Source: a virus | Length of the DNA: 32,650 nucleotides | Direction: 5' to 3' (one strand) | Virus record (IMG/VR): IMGVR_UViG_3300028610_000227 | Location: 1-32,650 of that record | Shown: one piece after another, positions 1-32,650 of the stretch | Layout: each line of letters starts with the position of its first letter | Position numbering within the stretch: the stretch's first letter is position 1 | Translations under genes and position numbers: made by a program | The notes under the pieces: generated by a model | The model's input: the letters and a program-made list of their open reading frames with translations, nothing else | What the model was told of the DNA's origin: nothing | The model's database searches: none

Positions 1-93
1 GGCTTTGGCGATGGCGATGGCTCTGGCTCTGGCTCTGGCTTTGGCTTTGGCGATGGCTTTGGCTCTGGCTTTGGCTCTGGCTCTGGCTTTGGC
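1..93 (+). repeat. Low-complexity (GGC-NNN)n hexamer repeat
   Basis: Fifteen tandem units of GGC plus one of three codons (TTT, GAT, TCT), preserving the reading frame and differing only in the second codon. The array runs to the window edge, so its full length is not visible. Such a tract can expand or contract by slippage and can break sequence assemblies. Confidence 0.85.
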
Positions 94-96
94 TGA
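1..96 (+). CDS. C-terminal end of a Gly-X repeat protein (partial)
   Basis: Frame 1 is open from the left edge to a TGA at 94-96 and encodes 31 residues in which glycine alternates strictly with Phe, Asp or Ser. The DNA is a 6-nt-unit degenerate repeat of GGC followed by TTT, GAT or TCT. The start lies outside the window, so length and identity are unknown. Gly-X tails of this kind occur at the C-termini of some small phage early proteins (recalled, not checked). The gene cut by the right edge of the window is a candidate for its other half if the molecule is circular. It lies on the same strand as, and upstream of, the SSB cluster. Confidence 0.6.
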   Translation, partial: GFGDGDGSGSGSGFGFGDGFGSGFGSGSGFG

Positions 97-298
97 TTAA
101 ATAGTTTATGGCTGGTGGCAGGTTATGCGGATTGGGAGTACCTGGTCGGCCTGTCACTAGCCTCCAGATGAAGAAGGTAAGTTTTATGGCTGGTGCGGAA
201 CGTCACATTGAAAAGGCAATAGAATTCTGGCGTATATGATTTCCGAAACCACAGTCTTGCCAGACACCAGCCACCCATTAGAGAAGAGGAAGGAAGAA
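97..298 (+). other. Short gap with a doubtful 43-codon ORF
   Basis: No gene is secure here. An ORF at 108-239 (43 aa) has an ATG without a ribosome-binding site. An in-frame ATG at 187 has a fair one (GAAGGTAAG) but would give only 17 residues. Its TGA overlaps an ATG at 236 (ATGA) that is in frame with the next small membrane gene. The phrase TTATGGCTGGTG occurs twice, at about 106 and 185, so part of the stretch may be a small duplication. Confidence 0.3.
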
Positions 299-6023: not shown

Positions 6024-9000
6024 TGTCTAACACCTGTTAGCTTTTCAACTTTCTTGGTTTTGAGTTTCATTATACTCATTCTCAACTCGGGATTTTCTTC
6101 AATTAACTGCTGTTTAGCTGTTTCTCGATAAGCCTCAAAGATAGCTCTTATGAATACAGACTTGCCACCTTCTTGTCCATCAGTTGCATTTTGATAGCTT
6201 GGAGTTCTAAAAGCTTCAGCCAATTTAGATTTTAGTGGTTGATCAACAAACCTGTTTTCTTTGCCTGAATATAAGGTGATGTAACGATCATACATGTGGC
6301 TGTCCAACTCAACGCCGCTAATTGCTCTAAGAGGCATTCTTAATAGTGTTTGTTGGCTAACAATTTCATCAGCTATGGGGTCTTTTTTGTCAGTTGACAT
6401 ATAAATGGGCGACATAATATCCGGCCCCAGCCCACCAGATAAAACGATAGGCTCACCAAATATGTTCCTTCTTGGCGGAAGGTCTTCCGAATAGCCAGGA
6501 ATACGCGACTGTATTTTCTCCAATATGCCTTGAGTAGCATTCAAAGCAGGGTCTATTGTTCTTTCAAGTTGAGCAACGCCAGCAGGAACCACTGAGCCAG
6601 CCATCCTCTCGATCCATCTTTCAATCTTTCGGTTGTTAGCTTCTGGATCAGAAGAAACACTGCTCATTACATCAAAGAATTCTGAGACTCCGCGTAAATA
6701 CGTTTTAGAGGTTACGTTCTGAGCAACAGAAACGGCTGCTGCGGTGGCTAAGTCTAAAGCCTCTGCTTCTGATACTTGGCCCATGATTTCAGACATATCA
6801 GCACTAATGCCAATTAAAGCTCCAACCGGATCAAGGCGGCTATACGCAAAATAATCATCACCCACTCGAATAGAGTACGGTTGCCAACCTGTAGTTCTGA
6901 GCAGGTTTCTCATTGCAGGATTCTTTGGTCCACCGCCTGTCACTTGTCCAGACAAAGTGTAATCAGCAGCAGCAGCCATAATCATTGAACCTGTGGCAAT
7001 TTTAGCCAAAGCCACATCTCGACGCGCGCCACCCGCTGATATATCTTCTCTGACACCTTTAGCAAGTGGAGCCAGTGGCGTTCTTTCTCCGACATACTTC
7101 ATGATATTCGTGGGTGTACGAATGAAGGGAACAATTATCCTCGCGCCCGGAATCCGCCTAACTGCCGACTGAACAGACTTTCCAGCCTCTCCCAGTTCTT
7201 GCGTGAATGTTTGATAGCGAGAGGCATCAATCGCTTGAATATGCAGGTTTTCAGGAGGATTGTTGATAATGTCATTCATGCGAACAGATAACTCGTCGCC
7301 TCTTAACCCTTCGTTATATCCTGTGCGATATGCCTGAGCGTTCAACTCCATCCTATAACCAATGGTTTTAAACAGTTCATCGCCAGCAGTTAACATCCTG
7401 CCCGGAACCCTTACGGTTTCACCAACAAAGTCAGCAAAGCGACCAGGAGTACCAGATAGATTAAGGTTCTCCGCAGTAATCGACCTGTGGCCTTGGGTTT
7501 CAATCTTGGTTAGTTCGTCTGATGGTTCGCCTGTTTTTAATACTTTCCATGCAAGTCGCATCCCGTCTTTTGTACCTTCAACCATTCCCTTTAGCTGTGA
7601 CGACACCTCGCCATCAGGGATAGATTGATCACCAAGACCTTTGCCTATCATAGATGCTACTTTGCGCTCACCAGCAGCCCAACCAGCTACTATGGAATTA
7701 CTTAACACGTTAACAGTATGTGTAGCAGGAGAGCTTAAAAGCCCATTAATCCATGCCTCATACAACATGTCTTTGGTCTTAGCGCCCAGCATATTCTTCA
7801 CGGTCTTGTTAACTTGTGCAGCATCACCCATCTGAGCTATCTGAGCAGCCATGTTTCTTGAGAAATCACCGCCACCCGCAGCATCCAAGGATTCTTTAAT
7901 CGCTCTAGCCTGCATAGCATCACTGCCAGCCTGAATCCTGAATGATTGCAAGGCTCTACCGGCTTCTGCTGTTAATCCAGACACCTGTGATTGTATGGCA
8001 GAATGCTGCGACATAGCCCGACGAAAGGCTGTAACCTCTTCATCAGTTCCTGTTGCTGCTTTTTTAGCCATTTCGATCAGATTTTCACCAGATGCAACCA
8101 ATATCTTCCTTGCTGCTACGGCTTGTTCTGCATTAAACGCCTCGCCTCTACGACGATCCAGCAGGTTTCCAACGGTCATGCCTAAATCATCAGCCAGTTT
8201 TACCGTTTCTTCTTGAGTGATTACTTCTCGACGTTCTGCATTGATAGCTTTGGCGTTCTTCTCGGCCACCTTTTCAATCAGGTTTTTAACATCATCTGTC
8301 GTATTGATTCGAGAAAGGTTGATATTAAGAGCGTCAGCATCACCAGCTAAACCCTTCCCGCCACTAAACATGGGCTTGGATGGATCGCCTAGTGATGGGA
8401 GTGCTTCGTCTGGTTTAGGTGCTATTGGCTCAACGGCTTTTAACTCGTCTGCTGTTAAAGGCTTGATTGGTTCGCCTTCTTTAACCAGAGAGTCATCAAC
8501 AAGAGCCGCAGCAGTGTCTCTATCAGCTTCTAGCTGGTTTTGCTCGCGTTTAGCTATACGATTGGCCCGAATACCCCGTACAGAGTGAAACAGGCTTTCA
8601 GTGAGACCGCCAAGCGCCAGTCCTTCCAGAGCATTCTTGAATCTTCCTTCTGCTTCTGTGTCATCAGGCTCAGTTGCGAGAAAGTCGCTAACTGGATTCT
8701 GCAACAGAGGGAATTCTTCGGTTAAATTGGATAGCCGGTCTTCATGCGGATCGAAAACAATAGCGTCAGCAATAGCGCCTTGAGCCAATACTTTCCCCAC
8801 TTTGGCTGTCTTTGTTGCTGTCTCGACACCTTTTAATGCTTTTCCCGCACCAATAAACCCTGTTAGGAACTGTGCAACACCACGAACCAATGCTCCTGTG
8901 GTAGATCTTGGGTCAGAAATAGTGGGCAGAATGTCTTTCAAGCCACCCTTCTTCGCAGCTTCTGATCGAGTCAACAAATCAAGATCAAAGTTTCCTTCTT

Positions 9001-23352: not shown

Positions 23353-23910
23353 TTATAACTCTTTCAGCTTTTCTTTGTAGCGCCTCTTGATCTCAACAAC
23401 CTCTTTAATCGTTAAGCGCACAATGTCGTTATTGTTTTCCAACGCATCAACCCGATCTTGTCCTATCCGCTTTACTAGCCGGATTCTATACTCCAAAATA
23501 TTGCCGCTTAAATCCTGATTACACGGCCTGGCGCATTGCTTATGACAGTTATCCTCGTTGAACCTTAAATGCCTTGCAGCGCCAACACTTCGATAGTGAC
23601 CAGCGTCCCACTTAGCCTCTGTTCTTTCACAGGAAACACACGGCAGTAATTCATCACGTTTTCGTATGAACGCATTAAACGCTGTTTGAGCTTCACGCAA
23701 ATGGTCGGCCTTCGACTTAACCTTTGCTCTGCGCTCTCTGGTTTCCTTCCGCATGGCCTTCTCCGTGTGCTTCTGACCCTCTTTGGTCTTGGCTACCGCC
23801 AGCGCACAACTGCCATTACAGGCAATCTGCAACGAGCTAAACGGTACAAACAACTTCTTGCAGTGAGTGTTTCGGCAGCGTTTGCGCTTAACGGCTGGTT
23901 TCTTAGCCAT
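23353..23910 (-). CDS. ninG: NinG (Rap) family recombination protein
   Basis: 185 residues. The N-terminal Cys cluster is CRNTHC (about 12-17) and CNGSC, a zinc-finger-like site. It is followed by a highly basic helix (KETRERRAKVKSKADHLREA) and the NinG core: 'CVSCERTEAKWDAGHY' (about 100-115), 'NEDNCHKQCARPCNQDLSGN', an HNH-like metal site. Lambda NinG/Rap is a structure-specific nuclease acting on Holliday or D-loop junctions in Red recombination. Here it would act with RecT and the NinB-like protein. It is followed by small genes before the terminase, as in lambda the nin region precedes late genes. Confidence 0.9.
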   Translation of the reverse strand: MAKKPAVKRKRCRNTHCKKLFVPFSSLQIACNGSCALAVAKTKEGQKHTEKAMRKETRERRAKVKSKADHLREAQTAFNAFIRKRDELLPCVSCERTEAKWDAGHYRSVGAARHLRFNEDNCHKQCARPCNQDLSGNILEYRIRLVKRIGQDRVDALENNNDIVRLTIKEVVEIKRRYKEKLKEL

Positions 23911-24810: not shown

Positions 24811-25203
24811 TCATTTCTCTTTGACCGGCCAAGGAACACCAACGCCCCACTTGGTCGCAATATGCCTGTTCAGCGCTTCGTATATTTGCGGGTATTCTTC
24901 TCTCGTCGGTCTAGTTGTTGACGACTTACCCGTAATGGCTATTTGAACCGGACGCCATAAAAACTCTTTCACTGATGGCTTCGACCACGGCAATTCTGCG
25001 TCGGTGTTCATCACCTGCATGAAGTCGTAACCGCCGTCATTCAACGCCTCTGCCAGTTGCTCGCAGTACAGATGCAAGGCATTATTCTGTAGCTCAGACC
25101 GTTGTTTTCCAGTATTCCAGCGCCACATTACGTATTTCTCTTTTTCGTACAGGGCTTTAGCAAACCGCATGAAATCTTCAAACGTCTGGTCATTGTTAGT
25201 CAC
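24811..25203 (-). CDS. NinB-like recombination protein (130 aa)
   Basis: Core motif 'GKQRSELQNNALHLYCEQLA' (about 32-51), then 'DGGYDFMQVMNTDAELPWSK', 'KEFLWRPVQIAITGKSSTTR' and an end 'LNRHIATKWGVGVPWPVKEK'. This is the pattern of NinB/Orf-type phage proteins, in which lambda Orf helps load RecT/Beta-like annealing on SSB-coated DNA. I start it at GTG 25203, which overlaps the methyltransferase stop; a longer reading from 25251 has no ribosome site. It works in the same pathway as NinG, RecT and SSB by inference. Confidence 0.75.
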   Translation of the reverse strand: MTNNDQTFEDFMRFAKALYEKEKYVMWRWNTGKQRSELQNNALHLYCEQLAEALNDGGYDFMQVMNTDAELPWSKPSVKEFLWRPVQIAITGKSSTTRPTREEYPQIYEALNRHIATKWGVGVPWPVKEK

Positions 25204-25855
25204 CCAAAGCTGGCTCAAGGACACTCTCCCCATGATTTTTGTGGAAGCCATGTTCTAAGTTGGCCGCTTTAAAAATATGCTCTCCGACTTTAGGGTGTAC
25301 GCAATTCCTCAATATTTGAGCAGGGCAGTGGTTACTGCCGTAATAAATGTTTTCTTCGTAATGAATCCCCAGCCAGTCCATAAGCGCCTTCTTTCCCGCA
25401 AGGTCTGCTCTGTTAATAAAGCCTGATGGTCGAGGCACATCGAAGTGATCAAAATCAAAGTTTGTCCAAAATAGATGCCTTCCCATTTTTTTAGCTTCTA
25501 CTAGCGGCTTGTAGAACGGAGATACGTTTTCCACCACCCATAAGCCTTTGAAGAAATGCTGCAAAAACAATATCTCTTGGTAAAGCTCCATGTTTGGGTA
25601 GCGCCTTAATTTGTGTCTGGTAGCTTTGTTCATTTTGCTGTGTGTTTGGCAGGGCGGCGATGACCAGATGAAGTCAAATTCGGCGTAATGCTCTAATAAA
25701 TACTGATGAGCATCGCCCACCACTAACGTGTCGTTTGGGTGGGCCCTGGCATAAACCGCCGCAATCTTTGGGTGGTTTTCTACCGCTGTCACTTCGCAAC
25801 CAGTCCAGAGCTTCCCATTTCCGCCAAGACCGGCGTACAGATTCAAAACTCTCAC
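25196..25855 (-). CDS. Compact C5-cytosine DNA methyltransferase
   Basis: 219 residues with ordered C5-MTase motifs. Motif I is LNLYAGLGGNG (4-14) and II/III is AVENHP (24-29). Motif IV PPC has catalytic Cys69 in SSPPCQTHSKMN, and VI is ENV (109-111). Motif IX-like QILRN is at 180-184, followed by a motif X-like valine/His segment. Typical enzymes are 300-400 aa; the target-recognition part between VIII and IX is very short here. It would methylate cytosine in phage DNA, probably against host restriction; the site is unknown and no restriction partner is seen. GTG 25855 has GGGGGTGA upstream. The tail GFHKNHG is shared with the HNH protein. Confidence 0.88.
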   Translation of the reverse strand: MRVLNLYAGLGGNGKLWTGCEVTAVENHPKIAAVYARAHPNDTLVVGDAHQYLLEHYAEFDFIWSSPPCQTHSKMNKATRHKLRRYPNMELYQEILFLQHFFKGLWVVENVSPFYKPLVEAKKMGRHLFWTNFDFDHFDVPRPSGFINRADLAGKKALMDWLGIHYEENIYYGSNHCPAQILRNCVHPKVGEHIFKAANLEHGFHKNHGESVLEPALGD

Positions 25856-30106: not shown

Positions 30107-30262
30107 ATGATCATCGAATACTGTCATAAATCCAAATGCCACGTTGCCAGCGGCCATATTAAAGGCCGGTTTGTCATTGCAGAAGCCACTAGCAGCATCA
30201 AAGCATTTACTGCTTGGGTTGAATTAGCAGCCAGGGCTGTATCTAAAATGGGAGCAGCGTAA
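30107..30262 (+). CDS. Small hypothetical protein (51 aa)
   Basis: GGAGCAAATAATG start; stop TAA overlaps the ATPase ATG (TAATG). Begins MIIEYCHKSKCHVASGHIKG and ends in 'TAWVELAARAVSKMGAA'. Two Cys and two His in the first 21 residues may bind metal (C-x4-C-H-x4-H). Its 3' end carries the ribosome site of the ATPase gene. The role is unknown. Confidence 0.6.
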   Translation: MIIEYCHKSKCHVASGHIKGRFVIAEATSSIKAFTAWVELAARAVSKMGAA

Positions 30263-30265
30263 TGA
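30250..30265 (+). repeat. Repeated translation-start leader GGGAGCAGCGTAATGA, copy 1
   Basis: Sixteen bases covering ribosome site, TAA and ATG of the ATPase gene, identical to 31420-31435 before recT. In copy 1 the TAA is the previous gene's stop; in copy 2 it is not. This suggests one gene's start was copied from the other. Confidence 0.6.
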
Positions 30266-31419
30266 GTGATAAAGTCTATTTTATGAACAACGGTTCGTTT
30301 GATGTTCGAGCAATGTTGACCTTTGGTGTTTCCGCAAAAGAAAACGATAACGCCATTGGCTACTTTGGAACCGGCTTTAAGTATGCGGTTGCCATTATCT
30401 TGAGAATGGGCGGAAACATCACTGTTGAGTCAAACGGCGAAACCAATGTATTTACAGCGCGCAAGAAAACCATCAGAGGCCAAGAGTTCAGCATTGTTTA
30501 TTGCAATGATCGGGAGGCAGGATTCACTACGCGGCTCGGCATAAATTGGGAGCCGTGGATGGCCTTTCGTGAGCTTTACTGCAACGCCAAAGACGAATGT
30601 GGGGAGATCGCAGCAGAACCTAAAGATTTTGACACTGTGATTACCATTAAATGCCATGAGATTTACAGCGCCTTTATGTCGCGTGACGCGTATTTCATTA
30701 GCGGGGTGCCTGTTGCTACCAGCGAATCCGTAGAGATTTATGACAAGCCCTCACAGTTTATCTATTGCTGCGGCGTGGCTGTTAAACAGATCGCTGATGC
30801 GCAATTTACCTACAACCTCACGCAGCGCATTGATCTAACCGAAGATAGAACAGCGAAGTGGGAGCATCAAATCAGATACCCGCTGCAAAGGTCGTGGCAG
30901 CTGCTTAAAGACGCCTCGATTATTCGCCGCATCATTGCGCCAATCGAAAGTTATGAAAACGCAACCGGATTCGATACTGATTGGCCGACAAGCGACGAAT
31001 TTACTGATACGGCAGTGCAAATGTTGAAAACGACCGGGGTTAGCGAAGCCGCTAGAACTCATGTGTCTAAGCTGGATGAAAAGGCAGGTAATTGGCCGAC
31101 CTTTGAACTCACAAAAACGCAGTCAATAATGCTGGTTAAAGCCAAAGATTTTCTTCTTTCAATTCAGGTCAATGTCGATGATTTTGATATTCGCACTGTA
31201 TCAGGTCTTGGCAACGGCGTGATGGGCAGGGCGCTCGATGGTGTTATTTATCTGTCAGACATGCCGTTCCAAATGGGGACAAAACAACTGGCCTCAACAT
31301 TGCTTGAAGAGTGGGTACACAATAAATACGGGTGTGCTGATTTTGACCGGAATATGCAGACATGGCTTTTCGACAAAGTGTTGTCCATCGGTGAAGAAAT
31401 GATCGGCGAACCAATTTAA
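30262..31419 (+). CDS. GHKL-type ATPase-like protein upstream of RecT (385 aa)
   Basis: Residues about 8-115 show GHKL (Hsp90/MutL/histidine-kinase/gyrase) ATP-site features: a lid-like IGYFGTGFKYAVAII (32-46; G-x-G-x-K) and 'FRELYCNAKDECGE' (102-115), similar to the N-box with E, N and D/E residues, though in an unusual order. A middle region of about 130-290 matches no family I know. The C-terminus contains 'STLLEEWVHNKYG' (about 345-357), an E-E-x-x-H pattern that could bind metal. It may remodel DNA-protein complexes or assist RecT. Its TAATG start is coupled to the 51-aa gene, and the leader GGGAGCAGCGTAATGA is repeated before recT. Confidence 0.7.
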   Translation: MSDKVYFMNNGSFDVRAMLTFGVSAKENDNAIGYFGTGFKYAVAIILRMGGNITVESNGETNVFTARKKTIRGQEFSIVYCNDREAGFTTRLGINWEPWMAFRELYCNAKDECGEIAAEPKDFDTVITIKCHEIYSAFMSRDAYFISGVPVATSESVEIYDKPSQFIYCCGVAVKQIADAQFTYNLTQRIDLTEDRTAKWEHQIRYPLQRSWQLLKDASIIRRIIAPIESYENATGFDTDWPTSDEFTDTAVQMLKTTGVSEAARTHVSKLDEKAGNWPTFELTKTQSIMLVKAKDFLLSIQVNVDDFDIRTVSGLGNGVMGRALDGVIYLSDMPFQMGTKQLASTLLEEWVHNKYGCADFDRNMQTWLFDKVLSIGEEMIGEPI

Positions 31420-31435
31420 GGGAGCAGCGTAATGA
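31420..31435 (+). repeat. Repeated translation-start leader GGGAGCAGCGTAATGA, copy 2
   Basis: Second identical copy, at the recT start; the ATPase stop (TAA, 31417-31419) lies just before it. A looser version, GGAGCAAATAATGA, precedes the 51-aa gene. Confidence 0.6.
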
Positions 31436-32475
31436 CTAAACAAATATCTATTGTTGAAGAGCTATCCAAACTGGAACCGTCCTTTAGCAAGCAAAACCAA
31501 TATGGCCTAGCGTTTAAGTCCGAGTGTCTTTTTGCGCGCCAGCAGATTGTTAAGAATGATCTCACGCAGAAAACAGCAAACAACAATCCAGCATCATTGA
31601 GAAACGCGATTCTTAATGTGGCAGCAATTGGTATAAGCCTTAATCCTGCAATGGCTCATGCTTATTTGGTTCCTCGTGGCGGACAGATATGTTTGGACAT
31701 TAGCTACAAAGGATTGGTGAAGCTGGCAACTGATGCAGGCGCTATCGAATGGGCAAAGCCTGAACTCGTATATGAGAACGATACATTCAATTATCTTGGC
31801 CCCTGTACGCCACCAGAGCACGTTGCAGACGTTTTCGGCGATAGAGGCAACCCAGTGGGTGCATATTGCCTAGCAAGGCTTAAAAACGATTATATGGTCG
31901 AGATCATGAATTGGGCTGAAATCCAAAAGGTGAGGGATACATCCAAAGCCGCCAATGGCCCGTGGAAAACCTGGCCGCTGGAGATGGCTAAAAAGACAAT
32001 TGTTAAGCGCGCATCTAAATCATGGCCTCAATCTAATGGTAGAGATCGGCTGGACACTGCTGTTGAGGTTATAAACCAGCACGAAGGTTTGATCGAAGAA
32101 CAGCGCAGCATGTCTGAATATTTGAAGGCAACTCCAGAACAAGAATCAACTTTTCGTGATTTGCTTGGCGGTGATCCGCTTGATTACTTCCTTTGGTGGG
32201 AGCCGCTTGATGATCAGATAAAAATGTCATTGGGAAGCTCATTTCCCAAGGGTGAGAAAGGCAAAGGTGCGGATTTAATGCGCAATGTTAAGCAAGCAGG
32301 ACAAGAACAATTTATTGAGCTTATAGCTGATCTTACAACCGCCTGTGAGAAAGAAGATGAAACAGGCGTAAAAGAAGTGCTTGAAGATTTACCGGAAAAC
32401 CAATATCAGACGCTTATTGATACGCTGAGTGTTGAGTTGGTGCGATACGCCATTGACGTTATTGAATCAGCGTAA
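31432..32475 (+). CDS. recT: RecT-family single-strand annealing protein
   Basis: Anneals complementary single strands in phage recombination. 347 residues. The RecT core covers about 30-215: 'SLRNAILNVAAIGISLNPAM', then AHAYLVPRGGQICLDISYKG, 'VGAYCLARLKNDYMVEIMNW', and WPLEMAKKTIVKRASKSWPQ. It has the family's usual order (GISLNP, YLVP, ISYKG, KK..VKR). The C-terminal part (about 230-347) is acidic and helical and could meet SSB. No RecE/lambda-exonuclease gene is in the window; the neighbour is the GHKL protein. GGGAGC lies before ATG 31432. Confidence 0.93.
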   Translation: MTKQISIVEELSKLEPSFSKQNQYGLAFKSECLFARQQIVKNDLTQKTANNNPASLRNAILNVAAIGISLNPAMAHAYLVPRGGQICLDISYKGLVKLATDAGAIEWAKPELVYENDTFNYLGPCTPPEHVADVFGDRGNPVGAYCLARLKNDYMVEIMNWAEIQKVRDTSKAANGPWKTWPLEMAKKTIVKRASKSWPQSNGRDRLDTAVEVINQHEGLIEEQRSMSEYLKATPEQESTFRDLLGGDPLDYFLWWEPLDDQIKMSLGSSFPKGEKGKGADLMRNVKQAGQEQFIELIADLTTACEKEDETGVKEVLEDLPENQYQTLIDTLSVELVRYAIDVIESA

Positions 32476-32508
32476 TTAAACAACTAAACAACTAAAGAGG
32501 AAAGAGAA

Positions 32509-32650
32509 ATGAACATTGATCAACTAACGTATGGCGAAATGAAACAGATAGCCAATATCTTCAACAGCGAACCCACCAAGTCGGGCGGATTAAATCGAAT
32601 GATTGGCGATAAGTGCATTATCCGCACCTATTCCGCTGGTGTCTGGTTTG
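32509..32650 (+). CDS. N-terminal part of a conserved early phage protein (cut by right edge)
   Basis: ATG 32509 follows a purine-rich AGAGGAAAGAGA site; 47 codons are visible: MNIDQLTYGEMKQIANIFNS at the start, then 'IGDKCIIRTYSAGVWF' at the edge. I recall a phage early family with 'LTYGEIKQIA.~F' and 'IGK.VIIR.YSAGVWFG', function unknown. Some proteins of this type end in Gly-X repeats like the one at the left edge of the window (recalled, unverified). Confidence 0.68.
   Translation, partial: MNIDQLTYGEMKQIANIFNSEPTKSGGLNRMIGDKCIIRTYSAGVWF

Follow-up and report, generated by a model that had tools for sequence, protein, structure and literature searches.

A phage protein family with a predicted circularly permuted GHL-type ATPase domain and a zincin-like C-terminus, encoded in part of its carriers near recombination genes of differing types

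The IMG/VR virus record IMGVR_UViG_3300028610_000227, positions 1 to 32,650 of which form the 32,650-nucleotide window analyzed here, encodes directly before recT a protein of 385 residues (ATG start, positions 30262-31419, plus strand, as for all features below unless stated otherwise) that is very probably a GHL-type ATPase with a circularly permuted domain. It is a member of PHROG_8203, a phage family that is already clustered but unnamed, and the new part is the predicted permuted GHL domain. The whole statement, that such an ATPase acts in phage recombination and replication modules, has in our judgment about an even chance of being right. An earlier note on this DNA had proposed a GHKL-type ATPase paired with RecT in place of an exonuclease. 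Its GHKL-type reading is judged right in kind, the predicted domain layout being like that of MutL, MORC and Hsp90, and the replacement of an exonuclease was not borne out across the family; the permuted order of the motifs and the zincin-like nature of the C-terminal EEWVH region had been overlooked.

The sequence patterns on which that note relied, FGTGFK (residues 35-40), RELYCNAKDE (residues 103-112) and EEWVH (residues 349-353), are all present, and since they are conserved in relatives they are not chance patterns. In an alignment of 68 diverse members, on which all conservation counts are based, the N-box RELYCNAKDE (30568-30597), which lies 3' of the G boxes, was invariant at R103, E104, N108, D111 and E112 (68/68), so that the ExxxN(A)xD(A/E) signature of GHKL/GHL ATPases is found in every member at E104, N108 and D111. 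The G2 box GYFGTGFK (residues 33-40; 30358-30381) showed the same invariance at G33, F35, G36, G38 and K40, and the resulting G33-x-F-G36-x-G38-x-K40 pattern corresponds in 68/68 to the GxxGxG that precedes a helix in the superfamily, here helix 37-48. The motifs follow one another as G1-like strand, G2 and N-box, and not as N-box, G1 and G2, the order of the superfamily; for this reason we class the protein within the GHKL/GHL superfamily as a permuted form, distinct from the standard members.

The predicted fold agrees with this order. The AlphaFold2 model built from the 68 sequences had a mean predicted local distance difference test (pLDDT) score of 93.8, the lowest values being those of residues 21-40, where the ATP lid is expected. 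Its elements are a strand (4-9), a helix (15-19), the lid, a helix (37-48) and four strands (52-89), followed after the sheet by the N-box helix (98-111) and a strand (125-130). This is the order that a Bergerat fold would show if it were opened in the loop preceding strand G1, which indicates a permutation and places the predicted circularly permuted GHKL ATPase domain at residues 1-149 (30262-30708). Residues 1-276 were aligned by VIA-align with the N-terminal plus middle domains of Hsp90, TRAP1, GyrB and MORC2 with Z scores of 5-6.4, and the stretch of residues ~150-276 (30709-31089) is accordingly described as a region like the transducer or middle domain. The alignments started at chain residues 80 (Hsp90), 150/165 (TRAP1), 65 (GyrB) and 54 (MORC2), points that lie just after the N-box of each protein.

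A further indication of a permutation comes from an independent profile test in which cellular references only were rotated column by column and reversed profiles served as controls. Since the score printed by hhalign saturates, aligned columns and summed probability were compared instead; first runs with small reference sets had given E values of only ~0.01-0.02. In its natural order the Hsp90 profile aligned over 32 columns, covering the N-box only, with a summed probability of 16.5, and rotated to start at G1 it aligned over 121 columns covering residues 1-131 with a summed probability of 54.3, the reversed controls giving about 15-23. For the MutL profile the summed probability rose from 24.7 in natural order to 44.7 after rotation (reversed, 13-20). 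In keeping with the altered order, the sacsin-type NCBIfam model NF047352 is matched in its G1-G2 half alone, residues 3-40 pairing with profile positions 26-68 of 80 (E 6e-6, too weak for the curated cut-off); 14/68 members gave a match. A different fold with convergent motifs and no true permutation would fit the low sequence similarity, the lack of a Pfam GHKL match and the middling Z scores. It is nevertheless decidedly improbable, because each half by itself aligns with GHL profiles, and a single continuous alignment results only from a reference rotated at the loop before G1; in addition, there is no variation at the very residues needed for catalysis, and the Hsp90 layout extends to the second domain. 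The circular permutation, as judged from sequence and model, is thus well supported, not proven.

Several observations weigh against this assignment. The G1-like strand VYFMNNG..D (residues 4-14; 30271-30303) does not contain DxGxG; the DxG is replaced by NxG, with N9 in 64/68 and G11 in 64/68 members, and is read here as a putative variant G1. The usual Asp of G1 contacts adenine in GHKL ATPases. Among the 68 members none gave a hit to a Pfam GHKL model or to a peptidase model. The Z scores of 5-6.4 lie within the range reached by unrelated models and are not decisive alone, and a Foldseek search of the model against the PDB returned no match at E <0.001, a result that excludes no family. Sequence searches of the PDB, single and with a profile, gave nothing relevant. 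As regards earlier descriptions, nothing relevant was found in the open-licence literature on circular permutation together with GHKL or Bergerat; one paper deals with GHKL proteins of the rIIA type and with methylases in permuted order, and not with the PHROG_8203 family (PMC7824862).

The C-terminal part of the protein carries a second predicted fold. Residues 283-382 (31108-31407) resemble a zincin or minigluzincin domain in VIA-align and Foldseek: the Z scores were 7.7 for a Grifola zinc peptidase, 7.2 for SPRTN, 6.9 for selecase and 6.8 for Wss1, several zincins lying between 6.4 and 7.7, and values below 8 may reflect a common arrangement; Foldseek gave selecase a probability of 0.99 but an E value of 0.03. 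In the place of HExxH there is an EExxH-x6-D motif (residues 349-360; 31306-31341), conserved at E349 (63/68), E350 (62/68), H353 (61/68) and D360 (62/68). An ATP-switched metalloprotease or pseudoprotease, in which the zincin-like domain would act as SPRTN and Wss1 do, cutting or holding a protein of the host or one bound to DNA, while the ATPase gates access, could draw on these likenesses (Z 6.8-7.7) and on the conservation of the four residues in 61-63 of 68 members. We regard it as improbable, since no member has His at the first metal-binding position of HExxH, where 63/68 have Glu, some members without the motif keep the whole ATPase, and the Z scores below 8 may express a common arrangement. 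The records L005, L078, L084 and L094-L097 are those in which the ATPase is retained and the EExxH-x6-D motif lost. In L094-L097, members from alphaproteobacterial prophages or contigs, the permuted ATPase is kept over the first ~220 residues and the C-terminal part is unrelated or missing; a model of L094 built without an alignment reached a pLDDT of 35 and was disregarded.

The full-length match to PHROG_8203 (E 1.5e-78), which bears no function label in PHROGs, places the protein in a family found in 72 GenBank phages, 66/72 of which cover >=80% of the window protein at up to 38% identity, besides 143 relatives in IMG/VR and 14 in bacterial genome assemblies. The GenBank carriers include Yuavirus YuA (gp29) and M6 relatives and phages of Bordetella, Stenotrophomonas, Synechococcus, Bradyrhizobium, Dinoroseobacter and Brevundimonas. 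Nearly all relatives are annotated as hypothetical, the protein of Epa38 being called HATPase and one other an ATP-binding protein. A weaker, collinear match to PHROG_6077 extends over residues 5-256 only, and that family appears, from its sequence, to share the permuted motif order. The records L064, L065 and L068, from the same virus, and L091, a Paraburkholderia prophage, contain one in-frame TAA in an otherwise intact homologue frame, at residue 246 in L064 and at residue 146 in L091; TAG recoding was rejected as an explanation for L064 and L091, both stops being TAA.

The genomic neighborhood was surveyed in 50 homologue-bearing phage records. RecT was found in 3/50, one of them being the same phage and one having RecT 23 kb away; the other models gave RAD52 in 3, ERF in 2 and Gam in 5. 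The RecE-like exonuclease PF12684 occurred in 8/50 records and lay directly downstream of the ATPase gene in 6 of them, which shows that the ATPase accompanies rather than replaces an exonuclease. The order ATPase-RecE is seen in L015, L016, L017, L019 and L041, ATPase-RAD52-Gam in L021 and ATPase-Gam-RecT in L069, and in AH02 the ATPase precedes annotated DNA-binding and Gam genes. The first 3 kb downstream contain, on the same strand, genes for RecE-like exonucleases, Gam, Sak4, Erf, RecT, SSB, HNH proteins and helicases, and those upstream are primases, helicases and repressors. The gene thus tends to head recombination operons of differing types, often with an exonuclease, and it is neither specific to RecT nor a replacement for the exonuclease.

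A single-strand annealing protein (SSAP) or RecE lay within 2.5 kb in 10/15 records having one (p 3e-5 against uniform placement). Homologues unlinked to recombination genes, which the earlier note had regarded as fatal to its idea, are consequently seen in part of the sample. A role in recombination is weakened by other observations: the uniform null is generous, as recombination genes of phages are in any case grouped with the early genes; only 15/50 records matched any of the SSAP/RecE models searched; the neighbors in YuA-type phages are mostly unknown genes, with no adjacent recT; and no partner gene is conserved throughout the carriers. Nor was a common small gene found upstream; a putative membrane protein encoded there is common to the YuA-type phages only.

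In the window itself recT (31432-32475), coding for an SSAP of 347 residues (PF03837 E 4e-29; phrog_148 E 5e-59), follows the ATPase frame after a gap of 12 bp, and the identical 16-nt start regions of the two genes were seen as described before. The repeat, GGGAGCAGCGTAATGA, has exactly two copies without mismatch, at 30250-30265 (ribosome-binding site and start of the ATPase gene) and at 31420-31435 (start of recT); it never occurred in shuffled sequence and none is expected by chance. The co-expression claimed for the two genes is plausible as co-transcription. A dedicated RecT partner, an ATP-driven machine for end opening or loading instead of RecE, would account for the spacing and the identical starts, and no exonuclease was recognized by Pfam among the 23 other window open reading frames (ORFs). 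It is most improbable and as a general rule largely refuted, in view of the low frequency of RecT in the carriers, the PF12684 genes directly downstream and the lack of an adjacent recT in YuA-type phages; the window record is, moreover, incomplete, because the record L001 extends past recT.

L001 is a second contig of the same phage, identical to the window over 8.4 kb. Beyond recT it contains a small gene, of which the window has the part at 32509-32650 up to its own end, and then a GGCTCT/GGCTTT array like the one that opens the window, after which its sequence is 86% alike to window positions 1-162. The recombination genes at the two record ends are therefore likely neighbors, the joined order probably being ATPase, recT, small gene, array and SSB (399-803; PF00436 E 5e-11). 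Hexamers of the type GGCTCT/GGCTTT/GGCGAT fill window positions 1-94 and L001 positions 8642-8899, between the post-recT gene and SSB. The array of L001 is the longer one, and after it comes another copy of window positions 32494-32633 (98.6% identical), the start of the small gene being duplicated around the array.

The 16-bp copies bracket the ATPase coding region almost exactly. The ORF just upstream (51 residues, 30107-30262) shares one base with the start of the ATPase gene, and a deletion between the copies would place it before recT, the ribosome-binding site of recT being retained; this hints that the ATPase gene was acquired as a cassette. No empty-site relative with the 51-residue ORF directly before recT was found, only L001 from the same phage, and a relative of this ORF was found in the same phage alone. 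As to the wider recombination set put forward earlier, SSB and NinG (23353-23910, minus strand) were confirmed, whereas the ORF at 24811-25251, called NinB-like, had no significant Pfam or PHROG match; it and NinG lie 5-7 kb from the ATPase and recT genes on the opposite strand. A gene at 25196-25855 (minus strand) resembles C5 cytosine DNA methylases (PF00145 E 1e-7), the match being limited to its first 96 residues.

A working mechanism can be outlined, in which ATP hydrolysis, dimerization and a role at DNA ends are what we infer from the predicted domains and their neighbors. ATP would be held by the N-box (E104, N108) and the G boxes, whereupon the lid would close. A loop in the second domain with the motif LTEDRT (residues 192-197; 30835-30852; E194 and R196 invariant) is proposed, by analogy with the Arg/Lys of Hsp90 and MutL, to complete the ATP site through a catalytic contact, the candidate being R196. 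The protein, probably a dimer, would alternate between open and closed forms, closure on ATP dimerizing the ATPase, and the closed form might load, remodel or clamp partners at phage DNA ends or single strands. The annealing protein, the exonuclease, Gam and SSB are candidate partners, and the role would be accessory and not that of a nuclease substitute. Such an accessory role in recombination falls somewhat short of an even chance. It is tempting to speculate further that the permuted Hsp90/MutL-type ATPase fused to an EExxH-x6-D zincin-like domain represents a widespread phage machine, a new ATP-gated clamp or loader that works at DNA ends together with Gam, exonucleases and annealing proteins, a proposal that we hold to be doubtful.

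The same gene could be a host-takeover or counter-defense factor similar to T4 rIIA, a GHKL ATPase of phage whose C-terminal part is variable (PMC7824862); it would neutralize a host defense and stand among early genes because early genes cluster. In the seven records named above the ATPase persists although the C-terminal part is altered or missing, the carriers have no single conserved partner gene, and Gam, an inhibitor of host nucleases, recurs as a neighbor. The proximity of SSAP or RecE genes in two thirds of the records that have one would be needless for a free-floating anti-defense gene, and PADLOC provides no strong family match, which leaves this explanation possible, if on the whole unlikely. 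Membership of a defense system was rejected, the PADLOC matches being weak (TmtA, E 0.003, across the G1-G2 stretch).

GHL ATPases such as gyrase, Hsp90, MutL and MORC serve as drug targets and as textbook examples of conformational switching, and phage recombination modules are mined for genome-editing tools. Confirmation of the permutation would reveal which links within the Bergerat fold a protein can do without. Hypothetical proteins of 72 GenBank phages and of many uncultured ones could then be named and assigned a mechanism open to test, and phage recombination modules would gain a component driven by ATP.

Among known systems, YuA gp29 and the M6, Sonora and AH02 proteins are members of the same PHROG_8203 family, recT being adjacent in the window phage and not in YuA. 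The match to PHROG_6077 ends at residue 256, so that, as far as this comparison goes, the two families do not have the zincin-like domain in common. T4 rIIA and PHROG_8203, likened by description only, are both phage GHKL proteins with a variable C-terminus and differ in size and context. The predicted fold of residues 283-382 may correspond to that of minigluzincins and the SPRTN-Wss1 zincins, with EExxH instead of HExxH. The sacsin-type ATPase (NF047352) is similar in its G1-G2 half, but its N-box precedes the G boxes. With Hsp90/TRAP1, MutL, GyrB and MORC the phage protein has in common the N-box, the G2 box and, in the model, the layout of an ATPase followed by a transducer-like domain, and it differs from these GHL ATPases in its predicted permuted order, in the Asn that takes the place of Asp in G1 and in its zincin-like tail.
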